Positions 1,756 through 32,770 of a stretch of 34,596 nucleotides of DNA are shown piece after piece (the stretch's first letter is position 1; every line of letters starts with the position of its first letter). The position numbers were made by a program, and so were the translations under genes. The notes under the pieces were generated by a model. That model had not been told where the DNA came from. It saw only the letters and a program-made list of their open reading frames with translations, and did no database searches. The stretch covers positions 1 to 34,596 of the forward strand of contig NZ_WFKJ01000033.1 of the NCBI RefSeq assembly GCF_009208075.1. Reading direction: 5' to 3'. This DNA is from Poseidonibacter ostreae (GTDB lineage Bacteria; Campylobacterota; Campylobacteria; Campylobacterales; Arcobacteraceae).

Positions 1756-1765
1756 TTACAATCCT

Positions 1766-6262: not shown

Positions 6263-6263
6263 C

Positions 6264-8519: not shown

Positions 8520-8521
8520 TG

Positions 8522-9349: not shown

Positions 9350-9354
9350 TTTCC

Positions 9355-9918
9355 TTATTCAGTTAAACCATTTAGTTTTAGATTGATAATATAAAATTGT
9401 CCATATTTAACTTCATAATCAATTTCCAAATTAACATCTTTAGTTCTTAATAATTTTGTTGTAATAAAATCAGAAATTGAACCATTAACAACAATTTTAT
9501 TTTTCATATGAGTATTAATTGTACTAATATGAAATGATCTAGATATATCATTACTAATAATATAATTAACCATCTTCTTCAATTCAACTCTTACTGTTTT
9601 GTAAGTACTACTATGTACTAAAGGAATAATATTGCTCACCAATACATTGGCATTATTAACTGATACATTAAGTAAGTTATGTGCAATAAAATTACCAATC
9701 ATCTCTTTATATGATTCTGATACAACATCACCGCTAACCCAAAATTCTTTATAAGTATTTTGTGGTGGCAAAAATACTGTTTTTTTTGAATTACTATTTG
9801 TTATTACTTGATTTACTAAATAAATGTTACTTACTGTTAAGAGAATCATTGAAAATTTTAGTAAAGCATTTTGTGAAAGAATATTATCTTTCATATTGTT
9901 AAATATTTTAAAATCCAT
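9355..9918 (-). CDS. traE: T4SS inner-membrane protein TraE (VirB8-like)
   Basis: TraE is a bitopic inner-membrane protein that acts as an assembly factor of the F-type machine and corresponds to VirB8. It is 187 residues long, close to F TraE (188). One transmembrane helix lies at about 20-40 after a short basic cytoplasmic tail. The periplasmic part begins with the family-typical KTVFLPPQNTYKEFWVSGD, then SYKEMIGNFIAHNLLNVSV. It sits between traL and traK, with gaps of 2 and 5 bases, matching the F gene order. Confidence 0.92.
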   Translation of the reverse strand: MDFKIFNNMKDNILSQNALLKFSMILLTVSNIYLVNQVITNSNSKKTVFLPPQNTYKEFWVSGDVVSESYKEMIGNFIAHNLLNVSVNNANVLVSNIIPLVHSSTYKTVRVELKKMVNYIISNDISRSFHISTINTHMKNKIVVNGSISDFITTKLLRTKDVNLEIDYEVKYGQFYIINLKLNGLTE

Positions 9919-9920
9919 TT

Positions 9921-10220
9921 TTAGCCTACAAATACTCTTAATTCAGATTTTGGCAATCTGTTCGTTTTTGGTTTCTTCAAACCCAACATATACAAAATAT
10001 GAGTTAAATAACTTTTGTATTTTGTATCTTTTATTTTTTCATTAATTATTAGAAATGATATTCCAAAAAATAAACTCAAATAAACAAATACACCACTAAA
10101 TATAATCGCAAAACCTGCACTTCCTACAGCTATAATAAAAGAATCCATTTCCCAATTCATGACCATAGGCATAGTATCAATGTATTTATTTATATCAATA
10201 TATTTTGACTCTTCATTCAT
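9921..10220 (-). CDS. traL: T4SS protein TraL
   Basis: TraL is a small inner-membrane protein of F-type systems, related to VirB3 and needed for pilus assembly. The 99-residue length fits. It opens with a short hydrophilic segment (YIDINKYIDTMPMVMNWEMD) resembling the family's Y-x-I-P-x-x-L-D start. Two hydrophobic segments follow at about 25-50 and 50-62, then a basic tail. AAAAAGG precedes the ATG by about 6 bases. The gene lies 55 bases after the pilin gene, and a strong hairpin fills that gap. Confidence 0.88.
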   Translation of the reverse strand: MNEESKYIDINKYIDTMPMVMNWEMDSFIIAVGSAGFAIIFSGVFVYLSLFFGISFLIINEKIKDTKYKSYLTHILYMLGLKKPKTNRLPKSELRVFVG

Positions 10221-10236
10221 AATTTAACCTTTTTCC

Positions 10237-10267
10237 AAATAATAAGAGAGGTAATCTCTTATTATTT
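10237..10267 (-). promoter_or_regulatory. Perfect 13-bp hairpin between pilin gene and traL
   Basis: The arms AAATAATAAGAGA and TCTCTTATTATTT are exact complements around a 5-base loop. Read on the minus strand the hairpin follows the pilin stop by about 9 bases and ends before the traL ribosome site. This position suits partial termination or 3'-end protection of pilin mRNA, giving more pilin than the rest of the operon. The pairing is seen; the role is inferred. Confidence 0.75.
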
Positions 10268-10275
10268 AACTTTGT

Positions 10276-10584
10276 TTAGTAAATACCTGCACCAGAGAAT
10301 GAAGCAGCGACAGTTGTAATATTTACTACAATAACTAATAGAACTAATGAAACAATTCCTGAAATATACATTTTTTGGAAAAATAAGAAGATAGAAAAAA
10401 TTAAAATTAACATTCCTACAATACTTGTTACAGCAGGGTCAGCAAACCAACCTTGAACTTTTACCCATGTTGTAGCTAATCCTAAAGCATCTCCTGTACC
10501 AGCTGCAAAAGAACTACCTGCTAATAATACGAAAACAGCTAAGAAAGCTGTGAACATTTTATTTCTTTTAATCCATGACATCAT
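10276..10584 (-). CDS. traA: Major pilin (TraA/TrhA-like)
   Basis: This is the conjugative pilin precursor, 102 residues long. It has a basic start (MMSWIKRNK), a hydrophobic leader and a likely signal-peptidase site near SSFA/AG at residue 27, giving a mature peptide of about 75 residues. The mature part has two hydrophobic helices (about 53-70 and 72-92) separated by a short QKMYISG turn, and a small-residue C-terminus (SFSGAGIY). This is the layout of VirB2/TraA pilins. AAGGAG lies 7-10 bases before the ATG pair at 10584/10581. It is the first gene of transfer operon 1, directly under a copy of the shared promoter element, and the S26 peptidase in the same operon is a likely partner in its maturation. 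Confidence 0.88.
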   Translation of the reverse strand: MMSWIKRNKMFTAFLAVFVLLAGSSFAAGTGDALGLATTWVKVQGWFADPAVTSIVGMLILIFSIFLFFQKMYISGIVSLVLLVIVVNITTVAASFSGAGIY

Positions 10585-13539: not shown

Positions 13540-13710
13540 ATGCTAAATATCAACATTAAAGAAAAAGGTGCAGAATTAGATATTCAAGTACATGTTGAAG
13601 AAAATTTAGACAAAAGCAAATTAAAAAGTATTGAAAAAATATTAAGTCTGCTGAGTAAGAAGTTTGGTAATTTTGCAAAAAACAAAAATAAAAATAAGGA
13701 AGCAAAGTGA
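13540..13710 (+). CDS. Small protein, 56 residues, leads transfer operon 2
   Basis: The frame runs from ATG at 13540 to TGA at 13710 with a strong ribosome site (AAGGAAG, about 3 bases before the ATG). The protein starts MLNINIKEKGAELDIQVHVE and ends in a Lys/Asn-rich tail. It has no signal peptide. Its stop overlaps the GTG start of the next gene (GTGA), a classic coupled arrangement, which is good evidence that it is real. It sits 31 bases after copy 3 of the shared promoter element. No family recognised; a small regulatory or chaperone-like role is possible. Confidence 0.7.
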   Translation: MLNINIKEKGAELDIQVHVEENLDKSKLKSIEKILSLLSKKFGNFAKNKNKNKEAK

Positions 13711-14129
13711 GAAAGAAAATTCTTGGATTAAGTATTGTTTTAGGATTAAATATTTTACAAGCAAATGAGCTTGAGTTAGTTGGTAAAAATGTTATTAAGA
13801 ATACAAGTGAAATAAAAAAATTATTAATGGAAATTAATCATCTAAAGTCACTTTTAAAATTAAAAAACATAGTATCGGATAATACAAAAATATCTGTAGA
13901 TAATACAAACATAATTGAACAGGATTATATTAAAAATTTTGTGAGAATTACTGCACATTTTTTAAATGTAAGATCAAAACCAAACAATAAAAGTAAAATA
14001 ATTAAAGTTGCCAAAAAAGATGAAATATATGAAATTACAAAAATATATTCTGAAAAAGGTAACAATAAATATTGGATTAATATCGGAAATGGTTATGTGA
14101 ATAAAATTTTTGTTGAAGAGGTTTACTAA
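13707..14129 (+). CDS. Exported SH3b-domain protein
   Basis: The 140-residue protein has a signal peptide (cleavage near LQA, residue 19), a helical central part, and a bacterial SH3 domain at about 80-138 recognisable from ITAHFLNVRSKPNNKSKIIK and YWINIGNGYVNKIFVEEVY. SH3b domains of this type commonly bind peptidoglycan or peptide ligands in the periplasm, so it may position the T4SS in the cell wall. The start is a GTG overlapping the stop of the small gene upstream, with AAGGAAG before it. It overlaps the next gene at TAATG. Confidence 0.78.
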   Translation: MRKKILGLSIVLGLNILQANELELVGKNVIKNTSEIKKLLMEINHLKSLLKLKNIVSDNTKISVDNTNIIEQDYIKNFVRITAHFLNVRSKPNNKSKIIKVAKKDEIYEITKIYSEKGNNKYWINIGNGYVNKIFVEEVY

Positions 14130-14881
14130 TGTTAAAAAGAAAAACAGTCAGTTTAATTGTATTATTATCTATTGTTGTTAATTTAAATGCAGAGATTAAA
14201 AAAGATATAAATCATGAATTTGAATTGATTAAAGAAGTTATTCCAAACACAAAAATTATGAAATACAAGAAGTCAATGATTGATGGATTTTATAATGTTT
14301 ACTTTGAGAATGGTCAAATAATATATGTTAATCCTTACAAAAAAATGATTTTATTTGGTGAAATTTGGAATTCATCTGGATTAAGTTTAACAAATGCAGA
14401 TAGAGAAAAATGGAAAAAAGAGTTAAAAGGTGAAGGAATTACTGTTAGCAAAGAAGATTCTGTTATTGCAGAATTAAAAAAGAATGATGAAGTTCATAAA
14501 GAATGGAATAAAACATTAGTAAAAAATGGTGTAAAGTATGGAAAGGGTGGTAACCAGAAGTATAAAGTAATTGTTGTTGAATCCCCTACATGCCCTTACT
14601 GTAGGAAACTAAATAAATATTTGTCAGAATTTGACAACACTACTTACAAATATTATTCTAATGAAGCTAAATCTATAGATGTATATAAAAATAAGTATAA
14701 AGTAAAAAATCCCAAAGAAGTATTAAAAATACAGGGCGAGATACTTAAAAATAAAATAAATGGAATTGGAGTACCTTTTGGAATAGTTATTGATGAGAAT
14801 AGTGTCGTAGTAGATACTATTTTAGGGTTTTCATCAAGTGATAAAACTAATATTGGGAAATGGAATAAATATTTAAAATGA
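14129..14881 (+). CDS. DsbC-like thiol-disulfide protein with CPYC
   Basis: This is a periplasmic thioredoxin-fold protein of 250 residues with a signal peptide ending near NLNA (residue 21). The N-terminal part (about 30-90) looks like the DsbC dimerisation domain, with YNVYFENGQIIYVNPYKKMI. The active site is CPYC at 155-158 in VVESPTCPYCRKL, and the cis-Pro loop is GIGVPFGIVID. It should isomerise or reduce disulfides in Cys-rich transfer proteins (TraH, TraU, TraN), a role played by plasmid-borne DsbC or TrbB in other F-type systems. It overlaps its neighbours on both sides (TAATG upstream, ATGA downstream). Confidence 0.87.
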   Translation: MLKRKTVSLIVLLSIVVNLNAEIKKDINHEFELIKEVIPNTKIMKYKKSMIDGFYNVYFENGQIIYVNPYKKMILFGEIWNSSGLSLTNADREKWKKELKGEGITVSKEDSVIAELKKNDEVHKEWNKTLVKNGVKYGKGGNQKYKVIVVESPTCPYCRKLNKYLSEFDNTTYKYYSNEAKSIDVYKNKYKVKNPKEVLKIQGEILKNKINGIGVPFGIVIDENSVVVDTILGFSSSDKTNIGKWNKYLK

Positions 14882-15801
14882 AAAAATTAATTTTTTCTAT
14901 ATCATTGATTATAATAAATGTAAATTTGGAACTATACGCATTCAATAATAATTTTTATAATGAAAATAAAGAAGGTTATTTTTATTATAAGGATGAAATC
15001 ATTGAAGAAGAAAAAGTTAAAGATAATAAAATTATTAAAAAAGATATTAGTATTACAGTAAGTGAATATAGTAAAACTGAAGAAATGATGAAGATGTCTT
15101 TTGAAGATGATAAAGAAAGAGAGTTAAGAAAAAAGAGAGAAGACAATTTTATGGCTAATATCCCATTTCATAAATTAGATGAAATGAGTACCGAAGAGAT
15201 TAAAAGATTACTTGATATTACAAGAAATATTTCAACAGGAAGACCTAATAAAGAGTTTGTAAAAAAGTATGCAGCAGTACAAAAATTTTGGGTTGATAAA
15301 TCAGAAAACTTTGCTAAGTCTTGGAGTGTAGCAAATTTAGAAAATCCAGATGAACTTCTTTATAATGATATAGGATGGACTTCTAGAGATAGAGTCAATT
15401 TAAAGAAAAAGAAAGTTAAAGAAGATAAAAAATTCTTCAAGAAAATAAAATCTAGAGCAGGTTATATTGTAATAATTGAAGATAAATCTGATACAGGATT
15501 ACTACAAGATACTAAACTACTTTACGAAAAAGTAAAAAGTCAAACAGGTTTAGATTATTTAATTTATGATTACTATGAAGTTAGTGAAACATTAAAAAGA
15601 CAATTGAAAATTAAATTAGAAACACTTCCCGAAAATATACTTTTATATGTTAATAACAAAAATAAAAAGATTTATAAGAGAGTTGTCCAAGGTTTTAGTG
15701 CTTCTACAAAAATTGTAAATAATACAAAGTTTATTTTTGAGAATGCAATACTTGAAAAAGATAAAAATCCTGAAGATAGAATTAAAAAAGGAAAGAAATG
15801 A
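14878..15801 (+). CDS. traF: F-type conjugal transfer protein TraF
   Basis: TraF is a periplasmic thioredoxin-fold protein required for F-pilus assembly. The 307-residue protein has a signal peptide and an early FYNENKEGYFYYKDE segment typical of the family's aromatic N-terminus. The conserved central piece AVQKFWVDKSENFAKSWSVA is followed by NLENPDEL, and a thioredoxin-like C-terminus starts near AGYIVIIEDKSDTG. It has no cysteine at all, so it cannot be redox-active, as is also the case for the active-site-less TraF of F. Relatively long basic and acidic insertions occur around 45-90. It overlaps the genes on both sides by 4 bases. Confidence 0.85.
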   Translation: MKKLIFSISLIIINVNLELYAFNNNFYNENKEGYFYYKDEIIEEEKVKDNKIIKKDISITVSEYSKTEEMMKMSFEDDKERELRKKREDNFMANIPFHKLDEMSTEEIKRLLDITRNISTGRPNKEFVKKYAAVQKFWVDKSENFAKSWSVANLENPDELLYNDIGWTSRDRVNLKKKKVKEDKKFFKKIKSRAGYIVIIEDKSDTGLLQDTKLLYEKVKSQTGLDYLIYDYYEVSETLKRQLKIKLETLPENILLYVNNKNKKIYKRVVQGFSASTKIVNNTKFIFENAILEKDKNPEDRIKKGKK

Positions 15802-18800
15802 AAAGATATATAATATTAATATTTGTATTATATTCTCAATTGTTTTCTGGTGTTAGTGGTGAAATTTATACTAATGGATATCATGAATATATTGTAAGTG
15901 TTTTAAATGCTATTTCTGGATTAGCTGCAAGTAACAATGAAACACTTATAAAAATAGCAACTTCAATTGCTATATTAATATTAACAATAAAAATTTTATT
16001 TAACCAAAGTGCAAGAGCAGTTGCAGGGTTTGAAATTCTAAAATATGGAACTTTAATACTTGCAATACAAGCACTTTTTATATCAGCACCAGATGATGAT
16101 AATCATGCATATGCAGTTATTGATAAAATATCAAATCAAACTACAGAAGTAAGACAAATACCTAAAGGGATTGGAGAGTTTTTAACAATGTTCTCTAATT
16201 TAGAAGATGGAATTATGAGTAAAATGGAATTATATTTAACAACACCTAATTCATTATCATATAGACAAGCAGGTTTAGGTTTTACTATATCTACTCAAAT
16301 GGAAATTATGCGTTCTGATATAGTTGATGAAAATTTAAAGAAAACATTTCATGAATATATTTTAAACTGTAAAGTTGATGGAGATTTTTCTGCAAATAGC
16401 CAAAATTTAAATGACATTTTATCAAGTGAAGGTGAAGACATAATTAATAAACTTGAATCACCTAAAAGTTTATTAACACTTATATATTCTGATACAAATC
16501 CACTAGGAGAAATTAAAGAATGTAAAGAAGCATGGATTGATATTAAAGCAGGAATAGGTGTTGAATCTATTAATCATATTGAAGCATATTCAAAAGCTAG
16601 AGGATTAATAGCAGCTACTTATTCAGCAAAAGTTGCAGAAGCAGTAATGATTACAGGAAGTAACTCTGCAACAATATCAGCAAAAAAACAATTAGAAGCT
16701 TCAATTGCAAGAAATGCAACACTAGATTCAATAAAAAAAGTTGCAACCTTTAATGGAGTTTCAGATTCACTATTAGCAAAACAAGTTTCTATATCTGAAT
16801 TATCAATGACAAATGCATCTATACTATCAAATTATCAAGCTCAAGGTACATTGCCAATTCTTAAAGCAGTATGTATGTCTTTTCTAATTGTTCTATCGTG
16901 GATAGTAGCAATTTTAGCAATTGCAACAATGAATATACAATACATAAAATTTATTATAATGTTAAATATTTGGTTAATGCTTTGGTCACCATTATTTCAA
17001 GTATTAAATTATGCAATTGATTTAATGGTAGATGATGCATTGTCTTTATATAGTAATGGAATAAGTGCTTCAACTCAAATAGGAGTTTATGAAATACTAG
17101 GTGGTAAATTAGCCGTTATTACAAATCTAGTGTGGTCTGTACCTATTTTAGCTTTTGCAATAGCTAAAGGTAGTGAAATGGGAATGGTAAGTTTTATGAA
17201 TGGAATGTTATCTCCTGTACAAAATGCAGCACATCATGCAGCTAAAACAGATGTACAAAGTGCAACAACAGGAAATGACAGTTATCTTACTTCTGATGGT
17301 TCATTAAGTCAATATGGAGTATCTAGTAACTCACAACTTACAGGAGTAGGTGGTCAAAGTACAAAACTAAATGATGATGGTAACACTATATCAACTATTA
17401 AAGGTACAGGTGTTACTAAAGCATCAAGTGGATTAAATGGTAATTTAGGTGCAGCTATAGATGGTAATGGAAATATTAACGTAAGTAATGATCAAGCAAG
17501 TGCATCATTACAAAATAGTGCATCAACAAGTTTAAGTTTGGCAGAATCTAATGTAAAAAGTATGCAAAGTAGTTTAGTAAAAAGTAATGAAAATGCAGTT
17601 AGTAGTATTTCAAATGTGGGTGAAAATAATACTCTTACTAGAAGTGATGGAAGTGCTTTTAAACTTAGTGAATCTACTTCTGAAACTATTGGTTCTATGA
17701 CAAGTAGTGCAAGTAAAGAAGCATTTGGTGCAAGTTCTAAAAGTGCTTTAGTAGATTCAATTATGGAAAGTTCTGATGCTAAAAATGCATTAAATTTAAA
17801 AGCTGATAGTTCAAGAAGTGTAGTTGGTGCAGCAGTTGCAGGATTATCTGGATTATCTGGTTCTTTAAATAGTGCAGGGCAAGTTAGTTTATCATCAAGT
17901 GATGGAACAAAATTTGAGTTATCAAAAGATTCATCATATGGTCAAGAATATAGCCAAAACTTTAATAAGTCATTATCAAATCAAGTTTCATCTTCAAAAG
18001 AGAATTCATTAGCTTATTCAGATGCATTGAGTGCATTTAAAGGTGAAAGTCAATCAGATAGCAATTCAACAAGTAGAAAAATGCAAGATGCATATAGTGA
18101 ACAAGAGAGTGCTTCACAAACATTTCAAGATACTAAATCATTAGGTTCATCACAAAATGCAAATCTTTTAAATAGTGCTTTTAATAATTACTTTGATAAT
18201 AACAGTAATTGGGATGATGCAAATAATGAAGAAAAATCAAACTTTATGGTAAATCAGATGAAAACTTGGAGTCAAGATATACAAGGTATAAATAATATGA
18301 GTGACTTTATATCTGATAACGCAGGTACTCCTAAATTAGAGAATACTGTAGATACTATTAATAGTATTGATAATAGAAGTAATGATTTAAAAAATGATGT
18401 TGGTTCATTAGATGAGGTTCAATATAATCCAAGTTCAATCAATAATACAAGCAATGAAATCAATGGAACGAATTCAAATATTCAAGGTTCTAGTGCAAGT
18501 AATGGAAATTTAACAAGCCAAGTAAATGGCAATTTAAAAGATGATGGAAGTATACAAAGTACTGTTAACGATAAAACAGATAAAGCAGGGAACTTTATTG
18601 ATTCACATAGAGATAACAATGCAAATAAAGTTGATGAAAGTATCTTGATTAATACAGCTGATGGTATGAACACTTTAGGTGAAGGTGCAAAAGATGTTTA
18701 TAAAAGCATTGCAGGAAAAGATGATCATGTTAATGCTGATTTAAAACAGTATGCAGATAATAATAAAGTAGTAAATGATAGTACTTATTCAAATGCAAAA

Positions 18801-19145
18801 TTAGGTAATAATAACTTAGTAGAACATGGATGGATTAATGATGATATAAATTCAAGTGCTATGCAAAATGCAAGTACTGAAACATTAGCAAGAATATATA
18901 ATCACGATTTAGCTGAAGATACATTAAGTGATAGTTCTAAAAGTAGTTTAAAAAATGAACTTACTGATAGAGGTTATGATACAAATAACAATGAGTTTTC
19001 TAGCAATTATGAAAATCAAACAATAAAAGCAGATTCAATAATTCCAAATGGGGATAATAGTAATGTTGGTTCAAGTATAAAAAGCAATAATGAATTAAAT
19101 AGTATTAAGAGTGACTTTAATAATACATTTAAACCAAGTTTCTAG
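15798..19145 (+). CDS. traG: Mating-pair stabilisation protein TraG
   Basis: This 1115-residue protein has a TraG-type N-terminal membrane domain and a very long C-terminal region. Membrane segments lie at about 5-20 (leader or first span), 50-69, 85-104, 353-378, 382-411 and 439-458. The region TPNSLSYRQAGLGFTISTQM and the MNIQYIKFIIMLNIWLMLWS spans fit TraG. From about residue 480 the protein is dominated by Ser, Asn, Ala and Gly with irregular repeats. In F, TraG acts in pilus assembly and mating-pair stabilisation, and its C-terminus takes part in entry exclusion. The C-terminal sequence is low-complexity and presumably element-specific. It is the last gene of transfer operon 2. Confidence 0.87.
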   Translation: MKRYIILIFVLYSQLFSGVSGEIYTNGYHEYIVSVLNAISGLAASNNETLIKIATSIAILILTIKILFNQSARAVAGFEILKYGTLILAIQALFISAPDDDNHAYAVIDKISNQTTEVRQIPKGIGEFLTMFSNLEDGIMSKMELYLTTPNSLSYRQAGLGFTISTQMEIMRSDIVDENLKKTFHEYILNCKVDGDFSANSQNLNDILSSEGEDIINKLESPKSLLTLIYSDTNPLGEIKECKEAWIDIKAGIGVESINHIEAYSKARGLIAATYSAKVAEAVMITGSNSATISAKKQLEASIARNATLDSIKKVATFNGVSDSLLAKQVSISELSMTNASILSNYQAQGTLPILKAVCMSFLIVLSWIVAILAIATMNIQYIKFIIMLNIWLMLWSPLFQVLNYAIDLMVDDALSLYSNGISASTQIGVYEILGGKLAVITNLVWSVPILAFAIAKGSEMGMVSFMNGMLSPVQNAAHHAAKTDVQSATTGNDSYLTSDGSLSQYGVSSNSQLTGVGGQSTKLNDDGNTISTIKGTGVTKASSGLNGNLGAAIDGNGNINVSNDQASASLQNSASTSLSLAESNVKSMQSSLVKSNENAVSSISNVGENNTLTRSDGSAFKLSESTSETIGSMTSSASKEAFGASSKSALVDSIMESSDAKNALNLKADSSRSVVGAAVAGLSGLSGSLNSAGQVSLSSSDGTKFELSKDSSYGQEYSQNFNKSLSNQVSSSKENSLAYSDALSAFKGESQSDSNSTSRKMQDAYSEQESASQTFQDTKSLGSSQNANLLNSAFNNYFDNNSNWDDANNEEKSNFMVNQMKTWSQDIQGINNMSDFISDNAGTPKLENTVDTINSIDNRSNDLKNDVGSLDEVQYNPSSINNTSNEINGTNSNIQGSSASNGNLTSQVNGNLKDDGSIQSTVNDKTDKAGNFIDSHRDNNANKVDESILINTADGMNTLGEGAKDVYKSIAGKDDHVNADLKQYADNNKVVNDSTYSNAKLGNNNLVEHGWINDDINSSAMQNASTETLARIYNHDLAEDTLSDSSKSSLKNELTDRGYDTNNNEFSSNYENQTIKADSIIPNGDNSNVGSSIKSNNELNSIKSDFNNTFKPSF

Positions 19146-19208
19146 TGAATCATTATTGCTATTAAAATACGAAAATATTGTGGTAGCAGTATTTCGGCCC
19201 CAGCGGTT

Positions 19209-19236
19209 ACAGGTTCGACTCCTGCCAGGCATACCA
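19209..19236 (+). tRNA. tRNA 3'-end fragment (T-arm, acceptor strand, CCA)
   Basis: The sequence has exact tRNA 3' geometry. A T-stem (ACAGG with CCTGC, one mismatch) surrounds the 7-base loop TTCGACT. Then come the 7-base acceptor strand CAGGCAT, a discriminator A and an encoded CCA. The matching 5' acceptor strand ATGCCTG is not found at the expected distance, and no convincing D-arm or anticodon arm lies upstream. It is therefore a fragment, as left when an element integrates into a tRNA gene. The isotype cannot be assigned. Confidence 0.55.
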
Positions 19237-19239
19237 TCT

Positions 19240-19286
19240 AAAAGCCCTATATAATCAATGTTTACAGTGTTTATGTCAGGCTTTTT
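19240..19286 (+). terminator. Possible terminator after transfer operon 2
   Basis: AAAAGCC at 19240 can pair with GGCTTTT at 19279, followed by T-rich sequence. The stem is 7 bp but the loop is 32 bases, so the structure is only moderately convincing. Confidence 0.35.
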
Positions 19287-19469
19287 AAGTTTATATACTT
19301 TCCTTAGAATCACAAGTAAATGCTATTTTAATGAATAATTTTACTAACCAAGAAATAAAAAAATTGAATCTTTATAGTCTATATATTTATATTAACTAAC
19401 TATAAAAATTCTAATTTTATAAATTGAGAATTTTAATATTTTAATAAAGGCTTATTTTCTAGAAATAAA

Positions 19470-20570
19470 TTATTTTGTCCATGAATATCTATCTCTTAGT
19501 GAGGTATATTTATAATCCTTATATGTAATAATTTCTTCATGCATTAATCTTCCCACAATAATAGAAACTTTAATATTATTTGTTTTAGCGAATTTTTGCA
19601 CACTGGATGTTGTAATAGAATTGTTTTTTATAAATTCTTTATATGAATCTTTATCAATTAATGTATTCTTTGCAAAGTTGTTCGCTTCATTCTCTTGTTT
19701 TTCCAAAGAATCATCTGAATATCCATCCTCTAAAAATATTTCCCTTTTATTATGTAATAAGATGTGTCCTATTTCATGAAAAAGGTTAAACCAAAATAAA
19801 TCAGAGAATCCACCTCTGATAGTCATAATAAGAACTGCTTTTTCTTTGTTTGCCCAAAGAGTAGCTCCATAAACTTTTGTCTTTGCAAAGTGAGGTTGCA
19901 TTACAAATGCAACGCCACAATCAGCTAAAGTATTTTTTATCTTGCTAATTGCATCGTTTATATTATCTAAATTCATAAAATTTTTTATCTCAACTAGTGA
20001 ATCATTTAATTTAGTTTTATTAAACACTTTTGTTTCTATTTTTTCTGATAAAAGTACACCAGTTCTAATCCAAGCAGCTATTGCTTCATGTGATATGCTT
20101 TTATGATTTGAAATTCTAAATGCAGGTTCATATGCTTTTACATTGCATAAGTGAGAAAGTTTAGAAACTTTGAAAAATCTTTTTAATTCTTCAACCTTTT
20201 CGATGGCCTTTCTTGTTTCTTTAACTAAACCCATTTTAGATAAATCAAGATATGGAAACTTAACTAGTAATTTTGTTTCTTCCCGTTCTAATTCTCGTTC
20301 CAATTCTTTTGCTAAAACCATTTGATATTCATTTTCTAACCCAGTCCATATATGAGCAGGTACACCTAATACATCTTCCAACTGTAATGCAGTCGTAGGT
20401 GTAATACTTTTCTTACCATTAATTATTTCATTAACCATTTGTGCAGGACGGTCAATTCTATGAGATAAATCAGATTGGCTCATACTTAAATCTTCTAAAA
20501 CTTCTTCTAAGTACTCTCCCGGATGTATTGCTAAATCTGATTGGTAAATATTAGTTTCCATAATGATCAC
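19470..20570 (-). CDS. HigA-type antitoxin fused to ImmA/IrrE metallopeptidase
   Basis: This is a 366-residue two-domain protein. Residues about 12-75 form an HTH_XRE antitoxin domain with the HigA signature IHPGEYLEEVLEDLSMSQSD and a GKKSITPTTALQLEDVLG stretch. The C-terminal half is an ImmA/IrrE (COG2856) gluzincin with FHEIGHILLH at about 260-269 and a downstream Glu ligand in QENEANNFA. The toxin gene lies upstream and overlaps by 20 bases. GAGG lies 6 bases before the GTG at 20570; the ATG at 20561 is an alternative. The HTH domain should repress the operon and bind the toxin. The protease domain could cleave a regulator or the antitoxin itself. The pair acts as a stability module for the element. 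Confidence 0.88.
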   Translation of the reverse strand: MIIMETNIYQSDLAIHPGEYLEEVLEDLSMSQSDLSHRIDRPAQMVNEIINGKKSITPTTALQLEDVLGVPAHIWTGLENEYQMVLAKELERELEREETKLLVKFPYLDLSKMGLVKETRKAIEKVEELKRFFKVSKLSHLCNVKAYEPAFRISNHKSISHEAIAAWIRTGVLLSEKIETKVFNKTKLNDSLVEIKNFMNLDNINDAISKIKNTLADCGVAFVMQPHFAKTKVYGATLWANKEKAVLIMTIRGGFSDLFWFNLFHEIGHILLHNKREIFLEDGYSDDSLEKQENEANNFAKNTLIDKDSYKEFIKNNSITTSSVQKFAKTNNIKVSIIVGRLMHEEIITYKDYKYTSLRDRYSWTK

Positions 20571-20856
20571 TCACTTCCTCTATTTTTGCGATGTCGAAAT
20601 TACCTTCTCCATCATTAGTTATTATAAGTCTCCAAAATCCAGTTAGGCTGATTGCAAATTCCCCTTTTCTATTACCTTTTAAAGGGTGGAATTTCAATCC
20701 TGGTAATGAATACAATTCCTCAAAACTCTTTGCTGTTTTAAGTATAGTTATTCTTTGTATATATTTTCTACCTACTTGGGGTCCATATTCTTTGATTGCT
20801 TCTTTTGATTGTATATATTGTTTCTCTAATTTTTTTGTTTTAAAGTTTACTTCCAA
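20551..20856 (-). CDS. HigB-type toxin (RelE/ParE superfamily)
   Basis: A 101-residue mRNA-interferase-like toxin. The pattern YSLPGLKFHPLKGNRKGEFA then SLTGFWRLII is characteristic of HigB-type proteins, in which the toxin gene precedes its antitoxin, and the C-terminal DIAKIEEVSDHYGN fits the family. HigB proteins cleave ribosome-bound mRNA. The last 20 bases overlap the antitoxin gene, ensuring coupled synthesis. An inverted repeat just upstream (20869-20885) is a likely operator. Confidence 0.88.
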   Translation of the reverse strand: MEVNFKTKKLEKQYIQSKEAIKEYGPQVGRKYIQRITILKTAKSFEELYSLPGLKFHPLKGNRKGEFAISLTGFWRLIITNDGEGNFDIAKIEEVSDHYGN

Positions 20857-20868
20857 TTACTATCCTTC

Positions 20869-20885
20869 TTCACCCCTAAGGTGAA
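20869..20885. promoter_or_regulatory. Inverted repeat, likely antitoxin operator
   Basis: TTCACC and GGTGAA form a perfect 6-bp inverted repeat with a 5-base centre, 13 bases upstream of the toxin start. Short palindromes at this place are the usual binding sites of HigA-like autorepressors. Confidence 0.6.
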
Positions 20886-20985
20886 AATAATACTTTATTT
20901 TGCCTATATTTAAGCTTAAATTAATCCTATCTTCTTATATTTAACTCTATATAAGATGCCACGAAGTTTCTAAATACTTTGTATA

Positions 20986-21018
20986 AACCTCATCAATACT
21001 AAATACATTAATGAGGTT
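20986..21018. repeat. Inverted repeat of unknown role
   Basis: AACCTCAT and ATGAGGTT are exact complements separated by 17 bases, of which AAT/ATT can extend the pairing after one mismatch. It lies in a gene-poor stretch between the toxin gene and transfer operon 3. It has no T-tract, so it is a poor terminator. It may be a relic of a mobile-element end. Confidence 0.4.
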
Positions 21019-21060
21019 ATATGAGCGTGAGGTCGAAGTTTTTAATTAGTAGTGTATTTA

Positions 21061-21189
21061 TTATTTACACCAATCTTTAGACTTCTTTCCTCCATGATAA
21101 GGAATAGCAAGTTTTCTCTTGATCAGTTCATTAGATAAGTTCTTGTCTTGTTCATTGTAGACATTAGCAATTGGAGCGGTAACATGAAT
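21061..21189 (-). pseudogene. Remnant of a nuclease gene (thermonuclease-like C-terminus)
   Basis: On the minus strand a short frame ends with KRKLAIPYHGGKKSKDW and a stop. The pattern of a Leu-Ala followed by P-Y-x-G-G-K-K is typical of the C-terminus of staphylococcal-nuclease-type proteins on mobile elements. The frame is interrupted by a TGA about 43 codons upstream and has no start, so only the gene's tail remains. The rest of 20886-21460 holds no intact gene. Confidence 0.45.
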
Positions 21190-21403
21190 TCATACTCATT
21201 TTTAATCATCACTAAACCCACATTTCATTGTTATGCATATATAATTTCCCTCATTTTATTTTAGCTTCATTTCCATCTAATGTTTTCAAATATCCTGATC
21301 CTATATGTATAAATATTTTTTATAATAATTAATTCTTAATAGTTTACTGATATTACTACCTAACCTAATTTAATCAACTTAAAAATAAATAAATTAAATT
21401 CCA

Positions 21404-21431
21404 CAACGTGTTTTTACAATTTAATGAGAAC
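21404..21431 (+). promoter_or_regulatory. Shared promoter element, copy 4 (transfer operon 3)
   Basis: CAACGTG, 13 bases, ATGAGAAC, then TTATAT as -10 candidate. The first ATG of transfer operon 3 lies 31 bases downstream at 21462, preceded by AAGG. The 31-base distance to the start codon equals that of copy 3. Confidence 0.76.
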
Positions 21432-21461
21432 TTATATGTACAGAGATAAAAAAGGCTTAAA

Positions 21462-22346
21462 ATGAAAAAAAGTTTATTATGTTCATTAATTTTAATCTCA
21501 TATATGAACGCAGATACAGATAAAGAACTGTTTATTGATAAGTATATGAAACAAGATAAAACAGAACAATACAAAAGAGATGCAGAAAGTTTTAGAAAAA
21601 ATTTAAGTACAGATGTAGATATTAAAAAGATGTCTGGAAAAGATTTAGATACAAAACTTGATACTACTATTAAAAAGAATCATAATGTTAAAGATGCTAC
21701 GAAGATAGCTGAAGAAATAAATGGATTAATTAAATCTTCTGAATACAAGAAAAAAGTTACTGAATATAAAGATTATATCTTGAAAGATAAAGAATTGAAT
21801 TTCCAAGAAAAGATGGGTGACTATTCAAAAGAAATTAAAAAATCTCCAAAAAAAGCTTATAGAAATAATTTCTTAGCAAGTGATGAAAGATTAATTGTTG
21901 CTATAAGTGAATTAATACCAAAAGAAGTAATAAAGAATTATTTCAAATCGTTAAGTGAAAATTATGACGATGTTTTATTTGTACTTAATGGGTTTATTGG
22001 AAACAATCCAAAAAAGATAATGCCAACTTTAAAATATGTTAATGACTTACTTAGTAAAGATAATAAAGACGAAAAGGATAAATACTTATTTAGAGTTGAC
22101 GTAAACCCAAAAATATTTTCTAAATACAATTTAACTGAAGTACCTGCAATCATATTTATTAAGAACTATAACCCTTATATGGAAATACAAGGTAATGGAA
22201 AAGATGATAAGAGTAATGAAGATGTATATGTATCTTATGGAGATAGCAATATAAAATATGTTTTAGAAAAAATAAACAAAGATGCAAAGAGTAATGGACT
22301 AACTAAGTTAATTAAAAATATTCAAAAAGGATTCTTTAATGAATAA
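21462..22346 (+). CDS. trbC: F-type conjugal transfer protein TrbC
   Basis: TrbC is a periplasmic factor that works with TraW in F-pilus assembly. The 294-residue protein has a short signal peptide (cleavage near MNA, residue 17), a Lys-rich helical middle, and the diagnostic C-terminal thioredoxin-like part. There LIVAISELIPKEVIKNYFKS corresponds to the family's S-x-S-M-P strand and helix, and VNPKIFSKYNLTEVPAIIFI to the D-P-x-x-F-x-x-Y-x-V-x-x-V-P-T motif. AAGG lies 6 bases before the ATG. It is the first gene of transfer operon 3 and overlaps traW by 8 bases. In F, trbC and traW are also close neighbours. Confidence 0.88.
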   Translation: MKKSLLCSLILISYMNADTDKELFIDKYMKQDKTEQYKRDAESFRKNLSTDVDIKKMSGKDLDTKLDTTIKKNHNVKDATKIAEEINGLIKSSEYKKKVTEYKDYILKDKELNFQEKMGDYSKEIKKSPKKAYRNNFLASDERLIVAISELIPKEVIKNYFKSLSENYDDVLFVLNGFIGNNPKKIMPTLKYVNDLLSKDNKDEKDKYLFRVDVNPKIFSKYNLTEVPAIIFIKNYNPYMEIQGNGKDDKSNEDVYVSYGDSNIKYVLEKINKDAKSNGLTKLIKNIQKGFFNE

Positions 22347-22959
22347 AACAATTTTAGTATTAGTTGCAGCTTTTACACTAAATGCAGAAACAATAACAAC
22401 TTATAAGAATGGACATACTTATGAGATAAAAGAAAGAAATATTATTGAATTATTTAGAAATCATGTTGCAAATAATAAAGATGCAATTAAAAAGAGATTT
22501 ACAGCAGAACGAAACAGAATGATTAAAAAAATAGATAATTATAAACCTAATACTTTAACTTTAGATATACCAACATCAAAAAAAGCAAAAGTATTCTACC
22601 CAGATATTGAATATACAACAAAAAGAGATATAAAAGATTCTAAGGGAAAAATACTATACAAAGAAGGGTTTAAGTTTAATCCTTTGAACTATATCTCTAT
22701 GAATGATAGATATTTATTTATAGATTATTCTGATAAGAAGCAAAGAGCTTGGGTAAAAAGTCAAAAATTTAATGAGGATATTACTACCAGAATTATCATA
22801 ACAAATGGAAAAATTTTTGATGCAATTAAAGATTTTAAAAGAGAGGTTTTTTATGCAAGTGATGTACTGATAAAAAAGTTTGAAATTGAAGCAGTACCTT
22901 CAATTGTAGAACAAGAGCAAGACAGAGTTAAAGTAACACAATTTAAAGCAAAGGATTAA
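22339..22959 (+). CDS. traW: F-type conjugal transfer protein TraW
   Basis: TraW is a periplasmic protein needed for F-pilus assembly and interacts with TrbC. The 206-residue protein has a signal peptide ending in LNA (residue 16), then GHTYEIKERNIIELF, which fits the family's short N-terminal G-x-x-Y-x-I-x-E-x-D/N-x-I element. The core is clear: KVFYPDIEYTTKRDIKDSKG, FKFNPLNYISMNDRYLFIDY and KKQRAWV, matching the R-x-F-x-x-D-P...G...N-P-L...L-x-F-I-D...Q-x-x-W blocks. Length is close to F TraW (210). It overlaps trbC by 8 bases and is followed after 2 bases by a small gene. Confidence 0.9.
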   Translation: MNKTILVLVAAFTLNAETITTYKNGHTYEIKERNIIELFRNHVANNKDAIKKRFTAERNRMIKKIDNYKPNTLTLDIPTSKKAKVFYPDIEYTTKRDIKDSKGKILYKEGFKFNPLNYISMNDRYLFIDYSDKKQRAWVKSQKFNEDITTRIIITNGKIFDAIKDFKREVFYASDVLIKKFEIEAVPSIVEQEQDRVKVTQFKAKD

Positions 22960-22961
22960 GA

Positions 22962-23318
22962 ATGAAGAAAAGAATAGTAGGAGTACTAGTTGTACTTAGT
23001 GCGAGTCTGTATGCTAGTAGTGTACCAAATATTTTACAAGACTATAAACTAATTATTGAACTAATAGATGATTTAGCAAATAAGATTGATTCAAATGAAG
23101 AAAGTCTTAGAACAAGTGACTCAAAATTATCATTAATAAAACAATCTCAAAATTTAATGAGTAATGAAATATCTACAATTAAAGAATCTCAAAATTTAAT
23201 TGAACAAAAGATATTACTATTTAAATCAACAAAAAATATAGAAGTTCAAGAAGGTGTTTATTCAATTGAGAAATTAGATGAAGAAACAAAAAAACAATTA
23301 GTAAATAATTTAAGATAA
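22962..23318 (+). CDS. Small exported coiled-coil protein
   Basis: A 118-residue protein with a signal peptide (cleavage near LYA, residue 18) and a long heptad-like helix (about 30-95) containing two copies of an SQNLM/SQNLI phrase, IKQSQNLMSNEIS and IKESQNLIEQKI, about 20 residues apart. The repeated phrase suggests a regular coiled coil. It lies between traW and traU with tiny gaps, so it is part of the transfer operon, but I do not recognise it as a known tra gene. A periplasmic scaffold is plausible. Confidence 0.65.
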   Translation: MKKRIVGVLVVLSASLYASSVPNILQDYKLIIELIDDLANKIDSNEESLRTSDSKLSLIKQSQNLMSNEISTIKESQNLIEQKILLFKSTKNIEVQEGVYSIEKLDEETKKQLVNNLR

Positions 23319-23322
23319 TAAA

Positions 23323-24315
23323 ATGAAAAAGTTTAAATTATTTACAAACATTAAAATATTAATTCTTATTTCTTTAATTAATGTAAATAGTTATGCCTGT
23401 ATGGAAGATAAAAGTGCATTATTAAAGATGACACAAGATTTGTGTTATGAATGTATGTTTCCTATAACAATAAGTGGATTAACACTTATAAGTGGTCCAA
23501 TGGATGACCCAAACCCATCTTCACGTTCTCCTATATGTATATGTTCAGACCCATTTCCAAGAATAGGTATTCCTGTAAGTTTTTTTGAACCAAATAGGCT
23601 TATTGAAGTTGTTAGTGAACCTTATTGCTTCCCTAGTTTTGGATTTAGTGCAACCTCTAATTTAGGTGGAATGCTAGGTGGGAATAAGCAAAGTGGGGGA
23701 ACGACCTCAAGTAGAAACTTCATGCAGTCACATTATGGTATTTTTCCTGTTTTATCAATTTTAGAATTAATTACTGATTTCTTATGTATGGAAAGTTCTG
23801 GTGTTGATTATGCGTATATAACAGAAGTTGACCCATTATGGAATAGTGATACTTTAGCAGCAATAATATCACCTGAAGCATTACTTTTTGGAAATCCTGT
23901 AACAAACTTAGCTTGTATTGCAGATTCAATTAGTTCTAATTTTGGATATCCAATAGATTTATTATTTTGGTGTATGGGTTCATGGGGAAATTCATATCCT
24001 ATGACAGGAAGTCATTCAGCAAAAAATTCTTATATGGCAGATGTTGCAGGTATTGCATCAAAAATGATTTACAAAATGCACAGAGAATTAATACTTTGGG
24101 GAAGTGTAGGGAATCAAGGATTATGTGGAAAATATCCTATGCCTATATGGCAAAAGACAGCTTACAGATTACAACCTGTTATACCTGTTGCAACTCCAGA
24201 AGCAATAGTTATAGGGCAAACAGGTTTAAATTGGGATTCTTTTAAAAATCCACCAAGTATGTTCAATAATTATTCTTTTATTCTTTTTAAGAAAAGAGAT
24301 TGTTGTGCATTATAA
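23323..24315 (+). CDS. traU: F-type conjugal transfer protein TraU
   Basis: TraU is a Cys-rich periplasmic protein needed for DNA transfer. The 330-residue length equals F TraU. A signal peptide ends at about residue 25 (NSYA). Family-specific blocks follow: CYECMFPITISGLTLISGP, SPICICSDPFPRIGIPVSFF, EPNRLIEVVSEPYCFPSFG, and the C-terminal GLCGKYPMPIWQKTAYRLQ. At least ten cysteines are conserved in type and position, which requires disulfide assistance. The thioredoxin-like gene immediately downstream may serve that purpose. It is intact. Confidence 0.95.
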   Translation: MKKFKLFTNIKILILISLINVNSYACMEDKSALLKMTQDLCYECMFPITISGLTLISGPMDDPNPSSRSPICICSDPFPRIGIPVSFFEPNRLIEVVSEPYCFPSFGFSATSNLGGMLGGNKQSGGTTSSRNFMQSHYGIFPVLSILELITDFLCMESSGVDYAYITEVDPLWNSDTLAAIISPEALLFGNPVTNLACIADSISSNFGYPIDLLFWCMGSWGNSYPMTGSHSAKNSYMADVAGIASKMIYKMHRELILWGSVGNQGLCGKYPMPIWQKTAYRLQPVIPVATPEAIVIGQTGLNWDSFKNPPSMFNNYSFILFKKRDCCAL

Positions 24316-29540: not shown

Positions 29541-29972
29541 ATGAAATATATATTTTTAATTCTAATATTTATCAACTTTTCTCAAGCTGCAAAAGTGAAT
29601 TATTTTGAGGAAGTAGGTAATCATTTTGGAATTGATCCTCTTTTATTATGGTCAATAGCAAAAGTAGAAAGTAATCATAATCCTAAAGCAATTAATTTTA
29701 ATAGTAATGGAACAAAAGATATTGGAATTATGCAAATCAATACAATTCATATTCCTACATTAAAAAGATTAGGTTTTCAAAAAGAAGATTTATGGAATCC
29801 GAGAATAAATATTTATATGGGTGGATGGGTATTAAAAAGATGTCTTAAAAAACATGGTCTTACTGTTAATGGAGTTACATGTTATAACGGAAGAATTAAT
29901 AATAATCCATATGGGTTAAAAGTAATAAAACAGTTAAAAAAAGTTTATTCTAAAAAGAAAAAAGATACATGA
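29541..29972 (+). CDS. Lytic transglycosylase (VirB1/TrbN-like, SLT fold)
   Basis: A 143-residue exported muramidase. The signal peptide ends near SQA (residue 16). The SLT domain covers nearly all the rest: FGIDPLLLWSIAKVESNHNP with catalytic Glu 43, then DIGIMQIN and a closing CYNGR motif. It cuts peptidoglycan locally so that the transfer channel can cross the wall, as VirB1 and P19 do. AAAGG precedes the ATG. It overlaps the traN gene by 4 bases. Confidence 0.9.
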   Translation: MKYIFLILIFINFSQAAKVNYFEEVGNHFGIDPLLLWSIAKVESNHNPKAINFNSNGTKDIGIMQINTIHIPTLKRLGFQKEDLWNPRINIYMGGWVLKRCLKKHGLTVNGVTCYNGRINNNPYGLKVIKQLKKVYSKKKKDT

Positions 29973-32770
29973 AAAGAATATTATTCATATTATTAATTAC
30001 GTACATGGAAATGTTAAGTATTGATTGTAATAGTATTAGTAGTGTTGAACAGTATAATAATCATTACTATGCTAAAACATACCAAAGAACTAGTTATGAA
30101 GTTGCTAGAATATCTGCTATTAATGAAAATGGATATCTTGCAATTCCTAATGATAGTGGAGAAAATGAGTTCATTAGAAAATTGGTAGGTGGTAATACAG
30201 AAGCTTGGATTGGAATTCTTGATCCAAATAATACAACAAATTATTGTTATGATAATAGTACATGTGCCTTTAATGATTCAAGATTTAAAGATGTATTAAA
30301 CAATGGTTTGACATTTAAAAAATGGGCTAATCTTGAACCAAACAATTATATTGAAGCTTCAGATATTGAAGATGGTAAAGCAGTAGTTGATCCATTAGGT
30401 GAAAATTGGGTTATTATCAATGGAAATAATGGAGAGTGGCATGATGTGGGGAATCACAAAAGTTCAAATCAAAATCCAAGAAAACATATTTCGGTTATTG
30501 AATTTGATACAAAGCCAAGTTGTTTTTTTGAAGATGATGGGGTAAGTGAAACTGATTTTGACGAAAGAGTATGCAACACAAAAGTTTTTGATGATAACAT
30601 AGCAAATGCAAGTGAAGGAATAGAAGCTAAATGTTTATTTGATATTAATGGAAAAGAATATTGTCCTCAAGATTTAGCTCCTGCTGATTGGTTCTGGAGC
30701 TATATAGATGGTGAATCTGTAGAAACTGTTAGTACCGTTACAGATTATGCACAAGGAGAGTATCAAGAACTTACTACAACAGTAAGAGATTTTGCAAATA
30801 GTGATTCTAGTACACAGAATACAGGAACAGTTGTTGATTATGATAATGGTGAGAGTGCAACTTATACAGGGGTTGTAACAGATTATACTTCAATGACAAG
30901 CCCATTATTAACAGCAGACCCAATTGTATTAGGTGCATATACTTATAATTGGTGGAATTGTGATTCATGTGGAATTATGCCAATTGGATATTTAAGAACG
31001 ACAATAAGAAAAGCAGGTGGTTCAGGAAATAGTTTATCAGGTGGTGGAGTTCTAAATGATTCTCCAAATACTATTCAAGTAGGTATAAATAGCTCTTATA
31101 TAAATGTATCCCCTGGACAGATAGCAATTGTACAATATAAAAAAGTAGGTAATAAAAGTACAGGAGTATATAGGTCAGCAGGTGGAAAACCTACAATTAG
31201 GCTAAAAGCAACTACAAGTTGTTTAAATTGGGGAATAGAACAAGGAACAAAAGATTATCCTACCCATAAATATTGTAAGGATAGTGGTTCAAATAATTAT
31301 ACCTCTTGCCCTAGTGGATATCAAAAAGGAACTAATGCAGTAGGTCAATTCTATTGTTATAAAGATGTTTATCCTTGTCCTAGTAGTTATACAATTGAGG
31401 GAAGTGTATGTAAAAAAGATATTAACTTTAACTACTATTCATATTCTTGTCCTGTTGGATATACAATTGATAATCAAGGATTCTCAACTTTTGAAAAAAC
31501 AGACCCAGATGGTAATGTAGTCAATTGGGTTACTCTTGATGATAATGTAAATGAACCAACACCACCAATAGGAAACTGTACTAAGGTTATAGATTATGAC
31601 TACTACACTTATGGATGTGAAGATGGTTACACAATAGTTGATGAAGGATTAGATACATGTTATAAGACAGATAATGATTTAGATGGAGTAAGTAATGATT
31701 TAGCAAATGATTGTAATAACCCAATTCCACCAGAATCGAATTGTTATAAGGATATAGATTACAATCACTATACTTATGGATGTCCTGCTGATTATGCAAT
31801 TGCAAATTTTGGGTTAGATACATGTGCTAAAACAGACCCAAATGTTACTATCAATAATGAAAATACATTAATTGATAGTTGTAATGAAAAGATTCCACCT
31901 GTAGGAAATTGTTCAAAAAACATTGATTACTCATCTTATGAATATATATGTACATCTGAACAAAATGTATTTAATGAAGATTATAATCCTGTTAATGAAG
32001 GATTAAAAGGATGTCTAAAAACTGATGATGATTTAATTAATACTAATGCAGAACTAGGAGATAATTGTAATGATGCCGAATCACCTGTAAATAATTGTAA
32101 AACAACGGATTACGCTTGTAATAGTGAGATAAGAGAACCTGTATGGTTAGATGACCAATGGAAATGTAGCCCTTATCCTTGTTATGGAAATGAGAATGTA
32201 GAAGATTTAAGTGGTAATGTCGGTACATTAGATAAACAAGATAATGGATGGACTGAAGATGGTAAATGTGATGGAGAAATTTATATCTTTAATGGTGAAT
32301 CCCAACAATGTCGAAGTAGTGATAAATTCTTTGGTTTAGCAGGTGGTGGTTGTTGTAATGATGATAAATTCGCATTAGGCTTATTAAGTTGTAGAGCTGA
32401 AGAAAAAGAATTACAAATAAAAAAAGAAAATGAGAAATGTCATTATATAGGTGAATACTGTTCTAAAAAAGTAAACTTAGGATTTAGTAAAATTTGTGTT
32501 AGAGAATCAAAATCATATTGTTGTTTTAACTCACAATTAGGTAAATTAATTGCAGTACAGGGAAGAGAACAATTAACGGATATTCTTTGGGGTTCACCAG
32601 AAAATCCAAACTGTAGAGGTTTTACAATTGAAGAATTTCAAAGATTGGATTTAGGGCAAATGGATCTAAGTGAGTTTAGTGATAATATAACATTACCAGA
32701 TGTAGAAAATCAACAAAATACTATTATTCAAAAAGTTAATTCACATATGAACTTAATTAAAAACCAATAA
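29969..32770 (+). CDS. traN: TraN-type adhesin with C-type-lectin-like N-terminal domain
   Basis: A 933-residue exported protein. The C-terminus has the unmistakable TraN signature: CHYIGEYCSKKVNLGFSKIC, SYCCFNSQLGKLIAVQGREQ and CRGFTIEEFQRLDLGQMDLS. TraN is the outer-membrane mating-pair stabilisation adhesin. The N-terminal part (about 30-180) resembles a C-type lectin fold, with AWIGILD (79-85), KKWANLEPNNY including an EPN triplet at 123-125, and GEWHD (156-160). Between these lie about four tandem Cys-repeat units of some 55-60 residues (31380-32100), each with a pattern like Y-x-C-P-x-x-Y-x-I...GLDTCxKTD...C...PPxxNC. It ends transfer operon 3, followed by a strong hairpin. Confidence 0.9.
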   Translation: MKRILFILLITYMEMLSIDCNSISSVEQYNNHYYAKTYQRTSYEVARISAINENGYLAIPNDSGENEFIRKLVGGNTEAWIGILDPNNTTNYCYDNSTCAFNDSRFKDVLNNGLTFKKWANLEPNNYIEASDIEDGKAVVDPLGENWVIINGNNGEWHDVGNHKSSNQNPRKHISVIEFDTKPSCFFEDDGVSETDFDERVCNTKVFDDNIANASEGIEAKCLFDINGKEYCPQDLAPADWFWSYIDGESVETVSTVTDYAQGEYQELTTTVRDFANSDSSTQNTGTVVDYDNGESATYTGVVTDYTSMTSPLLTADPIVLGAYTYNWWNCDSCGIMPIGYLRTTIRKAGGSGNSLSGGGVLNDSPNTIQVGINSSYINVSPGQIAIVQYKKVGNKSTGVYRSAGGKPTIRLKATTSCLNWGIEQGTKDYPTHKYCKDSGSNNYTSCPSGYQKGTNAVGQFYCYKDVYPCPSSYTIEGSVCKKDINFNYYSYSCPVGYTIDNQGFSTFEKTDPDGNVVNWVTLDDNVNEPTPPIGNCTKVIDYDYYTYGCEDGYTIVDEGLDTCYKTDNDLDGVSNDLANDCNNPIPPESNCYKDIDYNHYTYGCPADYAIANFGLDTCAKTDPNVTINNENTLIDSCNEKIPPVGNCSKNIDYSSYEYICTSEQNVFNEDYNPVNEGLKGCLKTDDDLINTNAELGDNCNDAESPVNNCKTTDYACNSEIREPVWLDDQWKCSPYPCYGNENVEDLSGNVGTLDKQDNGWTEDGKCDGEIYIFNGESQQCRSSDKFFGLAGGGCCNDDKFALGLLSCRAEEKELQIKKENEKCHYIGEYCSKKVNLGFSKICVRESKSYCCFNSQLGKLIAVQGREQLTDILWGSPENPNCRGFTIEEFQRLDLGQMDLSEFSDNITLPDVENQQNTIIQKVNSHMNLIKNQ
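31430..32110 (+). repeat. Tandem Cys-rich repeats within traN
   Basis: About four diverged units are visible at the protein level. Recurring phrases are IDYDYYTYGCEDGYTI / IDYNHYTYGCPADYAI / IDYSSYEYICTSE, each followed by GLDTCxKTD-like and PPxxNC-like phrases. The number and spacing of cysteines are kept while linker lengths vary, as expected for disulfide-stapled modules of an extracellular stalk. Confidence 0.7.

Follow-up and report, generated by a model that had tools for sequence, protein, structure and literature searches.

Campylobacterota TraN proteins carry a constant C-type-lectin-like domain and an exchanged middle segment

The traN gene and its transfer region

The window analysed in this study is the entire contig NZ_WFKJ01000033.1 (34,596 nucleotides) of Poseidonibacter ostreae, from an assembly of 2.96 Mb (GCF_009208075.1). 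It contains an F-type transfer region in which TraC, TraH, TraB/TrbI, TraK, TraE, TraG, TrbC, TraU and TraF were all recognised, and traN lies within this region (Table 1). The start of traN overlaps the 3' end of a lytic transglycosylase gene by 4 nt. Its C-terminal part was matched by PF06986 with 91 bits (1.2e-25), the curated cut-off being 23 bits, and NCBIfam TraN models also matched the open reading frame, over the C-terminal part only. No PDB entry similar in sequence to the whole TraN was found. The open reading frame is the F-type TraN of an Arcobacteraceae conjugative element.

Table 1. Features of the window (positions on the contig; residues are those of TraN)
Feature	Position	Strand	Basis
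First F-type tra cluster (TraH, S26 peptidase, TraC, TraB/TrbI, TraK, TraE among others)	496..10584	-	
S26 signal peptidase within the first tra cluster	3196..3756	-	
Second tra cluster (DsbC-like isomerase, TraF, TraG, TrbC, TraU)	13707..24315	+	
HTH + M78 (ImmA/IrrE-like) protein	19470..20570	-	
DNA topoisomerase I with C-terminal GGDEF, 998 aa	25238..28234	+	Toprim, Topoisom_bac
Lytic transglycosylase (SLT)	29541..29972	+	PF01464, 2.2e-16
traN, putative F-type mating-pair stabilisation protein, 933 aa, 43 Cys	29969..32770	+	Intact ORF, PF06986
Signal peptide, residues ~1-18 (approximate boundary)	29969..30022	+	Hydrophobic start, starts of aligned relatives
C-type-lectin-like domain (CTLD), residues ~28-183	30050..30517	+	Lectin_C, AF2, Foldseek/VIA
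WIG of the CTLD core, residues 80-82	30206..30214	+	W/F-I/L-G in 17/17 aligned domains
EPNN, long-loop triplet, residues 123-126	30335..30346	+	QPDN in 14/17 aligned domains
GE, residues 144-145, Glu at the site-2 Glu position	30398..30403	+	Invariant, 17/17
WHD, residues 157-159, in the place of WND	30437..30445	+	Asp invariant, Asn absent, 17/17
Second conserved N-terminal stretch, residues 184-257, four Cys	30518..30739	+	
Variable, exchanged middle segment, residues ~258-647, candidate tip	30740..31909	+	
About four Cys-rich repeats of ~55 residues, residues ~484-705	31418..32083	+	By eye
F_T4SS_TraN domain, residues 697-886	32057..32626	+	PF06986

The Cys-rich repeats are also visible in the DNA as two copies of 122 nt (31550-31671 and 31715-31836), which are spaced by 165 nt and 70% identical. 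The unit is found once in the relatives and about four times in the window TraN, the last copy being the shared one. As a result of this multiplication, the middle segment of the window TraN reaches 388 residues, whereas that of full-length relatives has 111-213. Asp-rich stretches within the units (DNDLDGVSNDLANDC in the window, DTNGDGIGDSC in relatives) resemble calcium-binding thrombospondin type 3 motifs, a likeness without a Pfam score.

Identification of a C-type-lectin-like domain

The Lectin_C profile (PF00059) was missed in a scan of the whole TraN protein. It was recovered when the CTLD was scanned alone (25.2 bits for a cut-off of 22.6) and in a six-frame scan (25.9 bits, above the cut-off), and it matched 17/17 aligned TraN domains. 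Searching the PDB with phmmer, 30 of the 31 matches listed were proteins with the C-type-lectin fold, the best being human MBP with an E-value of 0.02. A profile built from the 17 aligned domains detected C-type lectins of the PDB at E-values of 9e-12 to 2e-8.

The structure of residues 18-262 was then predicted with AF2, giving a core pLDDT of about 90 and the strand order of a CTLD: beta1-beta1'-alpha1-alpha2-beta2-long loop-beta3-beta4-beta5. Using this model as a query, the matches listed by Foldseek were CTLDs throughout (collectins, MBP, SP-D, ASGR, MGL), from an E-value of 6e-8. Alignment to collectin-11 with VIA-align yielded a Z-score of 15.6 and an rmsd of 2.4 over 123 residues at 25% identity, many other C-type lectins scoring around 15. 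A model of the full-length TraN (mean pLDDT 43, pTM 0.27) was confident in the CTLD part only.

The N-terminal CTLD fold of TraN is not in doubt, and the domain, motifs and repeats observed lie well beyond chance. A preliminary description of this stretch, made from its letters alone, had proposed a TraN with a lectin fold at its N-terminus, tandem Cys-rich repeats and the conserved TraN end, and had assumed a Campylobacterota host. All of this holds, the host belonging to the same family as Aliarcobacter, and the structure prediction and fold comparison that it had called for agree with it. The WIG, EPN and W-x-D motifs that it had read were also recovered, with EPN at the correct place in the long loop.

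Distribution of the domain among TraN proteins

The domain was searched in 397 genomes from the Campylobacterota class and the host family. The 15 intact, well-scoring TraNs of this sample all carry it (15/15). It is absent from the C-terminal TraN fragments of the sampled genomes and from four distant proteins that PF06986 matches only weakly (20-25 bits). Among plasmid records, the domain was found in five, all from Campylobacterota (Campylobacter iguaniorum, C. upsaliensis, C. coli, Nitrosophilus labii and Aliarcobacter cibarius); phage records gave no match. Outside the phylum, Lectin_C was detected in none of ten sampled TraNs, originating from Klebsiella, Mixta, Glaesserella, Protochlamydia, Desulfosarcina, Photobacterium, Pseudomonas (two), Sphingomonas and Proteus. 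A search for related loci with a tighter alignment set returned 7 loci, and the same kind of search in IMG/VR returned none. The CTLD is a fixed component of Campylobacterota TraN.

Some particular cases were noted. In the C. coli plasmid NZ_OU532557.1 (L010:3914-6087), an interruption in the middle of traN has led to its annotation as two genes, one with the CTLD and the other with the TraN end; uninterrupted copies occur elsewhere. A contig filed under Flavobacteriaceae UBA6231 (L057, DJWL01000083.1) encodes a TraN near-identical to that of Campylobacter iguaniorum and is probably mis-binned. The Malaciobacter mytili plasmid pAMYT (L090:2777-5026) encodes, in a conjugation-type neighbourhood, a TraN-like Cys-rich protein of 749 aa; the second N-terminal stretch and the Cys-rich region are present in it, the CTLD and a PF06986 match are not. 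Finally, two short TraNs of about 400 residues (L040 and L041) have hardly any middle segment, the TraN end following the CTLD nearly at once; in these proteins the CTLD would be the sole candidate adhesive part.

Constant and exchanged parts of TraN

Mean pairwise identity was highest in the C-terminus (0.58) and the CTLD (0.51), lower in residues 184-257 (0.33) and lowest in the middle segment (0.19). The dN/dS of the CTLD, computed for six pairs, ranged from 0.03 to 0.14, which corresponds to purifying selection. CTLD identity correlated with C-terminal identity (r 0.63; r 0.69 for the two halves of the C-terminus against each other), while its correlation with the identity of the middle was r 0.16 (p 0.13). 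Individual pairs illustrate this behaviour. L048 and L050 are 82% identical over the CTLD and 83% identical over the C-terminus, and their middles have no detectable similarity. Conversely, the CTLDs of L007 and L050 are only 43% identical for middles at 77%, and those of an Aliarcobacter (L007) and a Campylobacter (L008) are 47% identical for middles at 60%. The CTLD is constant and evolves in concert with the C-terminus; the middle is the part swapped among relatives.

Published TraNs have a conserved base, interrupted by a tip in the middle of the protein that determines species specificity and lies approximately at residues 205-354 or 305-457 (PMC13104618). These tips are dominated by beta-sandwiches and their known receptors are outer-membrane proteins (PMC13104618, PMC10516633). 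A tip that chooses recipients is expected to be an exchanged module, variable among close relatives; this is what was found for the middle segment and not for the CTLD. Since the middle segment has the place and behaviour of the published tip, it is the candidate recipient-choosing part, and the CTLD is unlike such a tip. By analogy with the tips of IncF, IncA/C and IncH TraN, recipient choice most likely resides in the middle segment.

Hypervariation of the sugar loop, of the kind known from targets of diversity-generating retroelements, was rejected for the TraN CTLD, the identity being 0.50 in the long loop and 0.51 in the rest of the domain, with dN/dS values of at most 0.22.

Motifs and calcium-site residues

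In animal C-type lectins, a triplet EPN (mannose, fucose, glucose) or QPD (galactose) acts together with WND at calcium site II (PMC7618208). Within the 17 aligned TraN domains, the long-loop triplet is QPD in 14, DVE or DIP in 2 and EPN in the window sequence only, so the EPN of the window is one state among several, QPD being the usual one in this family. Two residues never vary, the Glu of GE and the Asp of WxD; the middle residue of WxD is A, S, H, R or W, never N. Compared with a canonical calcium-dependent CRD, the window domain therefore has the EPN/QPD triplet but lacks WND. Three CTLDs of the same class that do not belong to TraN (L091, L093 and L094) lie in very large ORFs, one of them seen whole as a 2519-residue protein, and keep EPN, GED and WND in 3/3 cases. 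Loss of the Asn thus belongs to the TraN lineage and not to the phylum.

Five ligand-type residues in or around the long loop are invariant: D85, N126, D132, E145 and D159 of the window TraN (D61, N102, D108, E121 and D135 in the numbering of alignment A1). On sequence grounds, the TraN CTLD keeps most calcium-ligand positions, the WND Asn being lost, and it may retain a modified metal site. The candidate ligands in the window domain are these five residues together with E123 and N125 of the triplet.

These residues bear on the main alternative explanation, in which the CTLD would belong to the donor base, as a structural module or one for protein-protein contacts, with no role in glycan binding: it might anchor TraN to the outer membrane or to a further Tra protein, and calcium, if bound, would do no more than stiffen the loop, as in tetranectin. 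We consider this possible but rather unlikely. Loss of the WND Asn in 17/17 domains, when the three other CTLDs of the class retain the full set, is in its favour, as is the co-variation of the CTLD with the C-terminal base; tetranectin moreover provides an example of a CTLD that has kept calcium and lacks canonical sugar binding (PMC13359685). However, a pure structural role would not need the site-2-type residues that are conserved here (E and D in 17/17, QPD or EPN in 15/17), and the TraNs of other phyla function without any CTLD.

Glycan context and recipient recognition

The oligosaccharyltransferase STT3/PglB was found in 11 of the 15 hosts of a CTLD-TraN and in none of the four Arcobacteraceae genomes searched, which include that of the window. 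All 11 PglB-positive hosts have a QPD triplet. The three non-QPD sequences all come from Arcobacteraceae, and the two of their genomes that were searched lack PglB. Two PglB-negative Arcobacteraceae hosts (G014 and G023) nevertheless have QPD. Because of these two hosts and of the confounding by phylogeny, we regard the relationship between triplet and PglB as a lead only.

This pattern is what a galactose/GalNAc-type (QPD) lectin directed to a glycan that Campylobacterota have in common, such as the pgl N-glycan, might produce, the EPN of the window then being a specificity switch in a host devoid of that glycan. The human QPD lectin MGL is indeed involved in the detection of Campylobacter jejuni; it also offers a precedent for the binding of LOS at a second, calcium-independent site (PMC7618208). 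With QPD in two hosts lacking PglB, a triplet pattern that follows phylogeny and WND missing, we judge this explanation quite improbable. For the window host itself, reading of the pgl N-glycan by the CTLD was dropped, no STT3 being present in its own genome.

The preliminary description had gone further than the fold, taking EPN as the mark of a mannose-type calcium site and the CTLD as a sugar-binding tip that would choose recipients by their surface glycans, in keeping with rich glycosylation in Campylobacterota. The real CTLD on a Campylobacterota TraN, with EPN in place, stood up to analysis; the three interpretations drawn from it were not supported. EPN does denote the mannose type in animal lectins (PMC7618208), but a lineage-conserved EPN, as expected for a mannose-type CRD, was not observed (1/17, against QPD in 14/17), WND is lost in 17/17, and the CTLD is a constant framework where the middle is the variable and swapped part. 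The fit with glycosylation failed in a search limited to the N-glycosylation enzyme, STT3/PglB being absent from the window genome and three other Arcobacteraceae. A mannose-type tip selecting recipients is accordingly very unlikely, the least probable of the explanations considered.

The best explanation, to which we give about an even chance, assigns recipient choice to the middle segment and makes the CTLD a constant, probably calcium-stabilised module binding a shared component of Campylobacterota envelopes. TraN in the donor outer membrane would present a constant N-terminal CTLD and a separate, exchangeable middle segment, the latter being the tip that selects the recipient if it works as in IncF, IncA/C and IncH TraN. 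The long loop of the CTLD may be held by calcium at a non-canonical site, as its residues suggest. Its ligand would be common to Campylobacterota envelopes, perhaps a sugar of the outer core/LOS or a conserved protein of the cell surface, and the CTLD would give a generic, non-discriminating hold during mating-pair stabilisation. That this ligand is constant we infer from the constancy of the CTLD alone. The short TraNs L040 and L041, nearly devoid of a middle, count against this explanation. A more specific version, in which TraN would be a two-receptor adhesin, the CTLD holding a shared surface glycan and a swapped second tip choosing, with one sugar and one protein contact, is doubtful when taken as one joint claim with phylum-wide use and with EPN/QPD switching between lineages as in animal lectins.

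Comparison with known systems

F-type TraNs (TraN alpha-delta of IncF, TraN-M/L/V of IncA/C, those of IncH and of A. baumannii) share with the window TraN the C-terminal domain and the tra-cluster setting. They are likewise Cys-rich, are assigned to outer-membrane mating-pair stabilisation and combine a conserved frame with a variable middle insert. Unlike them, Campylobacterota TraN has a CTLD in the place of the classical N-terminus. Profile alignment of the CTLD-type N-terminus with classical TraN gave no match (probability 0.6%); by sequence, the CTLD is thus not a diverged classical N-terminus.

With the animal C-type lectins (MBP, collectin-11, ASGR1, MGL) and tetranectin, the TraN CTLD shares the fold, at Z-scores around 15.5 and 20-30% identity. 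The WIG core, the EPN/QPD triplet and the Glu and Asp of site 2 are common to both, whereas the TraN CTLD lacks the WND Asn and the Cys after GE (GE[H/N]W), and its loop is longer between the triplet and the Glu. Tetranectin, which retains calcium and not canonical sugar binding, would be the nearest functional parallel as far as the residues can tell. The other CTLDs of the class are set apart by their complete canonical set. Finally, the PilV adhesins of IncI plasmids (R64) are, like TraN, plasmid-encoded and act in mating, but they are proteins of the type IV pilus tip, bind LPS and switch by a shufflon (PMC10516633).

No TraN with a CTLD was described in the literature searched, which mostly excluded subscription journals and preprints. 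The parts are of known kinds; what is new is the combination of CTLD and TraN, with a constant CTLD separate from the swapped middle. Work on TraN specificity has dealt with plasmids of Enterobacterales, Acinetobacter and similar hosts, and Campylobacterota TraN is a separate type, formed by a constant lectin-fold module and an exchangeable middle. If the proposed split is true, the holding part and the choosing part could be addressed separately and the use of envelope sugars in conjugation could be tested. For this phylum, to which Campylobacter belongs, it would also be of help in predicting the host range of plasmids.

Other genes of the transfer region

Three further genes of the region were noted (Table 1). 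The first tra cluster comprises an S26 signal peptidase; S26 signal peptidases of such a kind serve pilin maturation in some F-like systems. An HTH protein with an M78 (ImmA/IrrE-like) domain, possibly an antitoxin or a regulator, is encoded between tra genes. Lastly, a DNA topoisomerase I inside the transfer region is fused to a C-terminal GGDEF domain, a diguanylate cyclase domain whose GGEEF motif is intact. No plasmid record covered 80% of this fusion. Within the listed matches from 104 family genomes, the window alone aligned over the full length, topoisomerases and GGDEF proteins being matched separately elsewhere.
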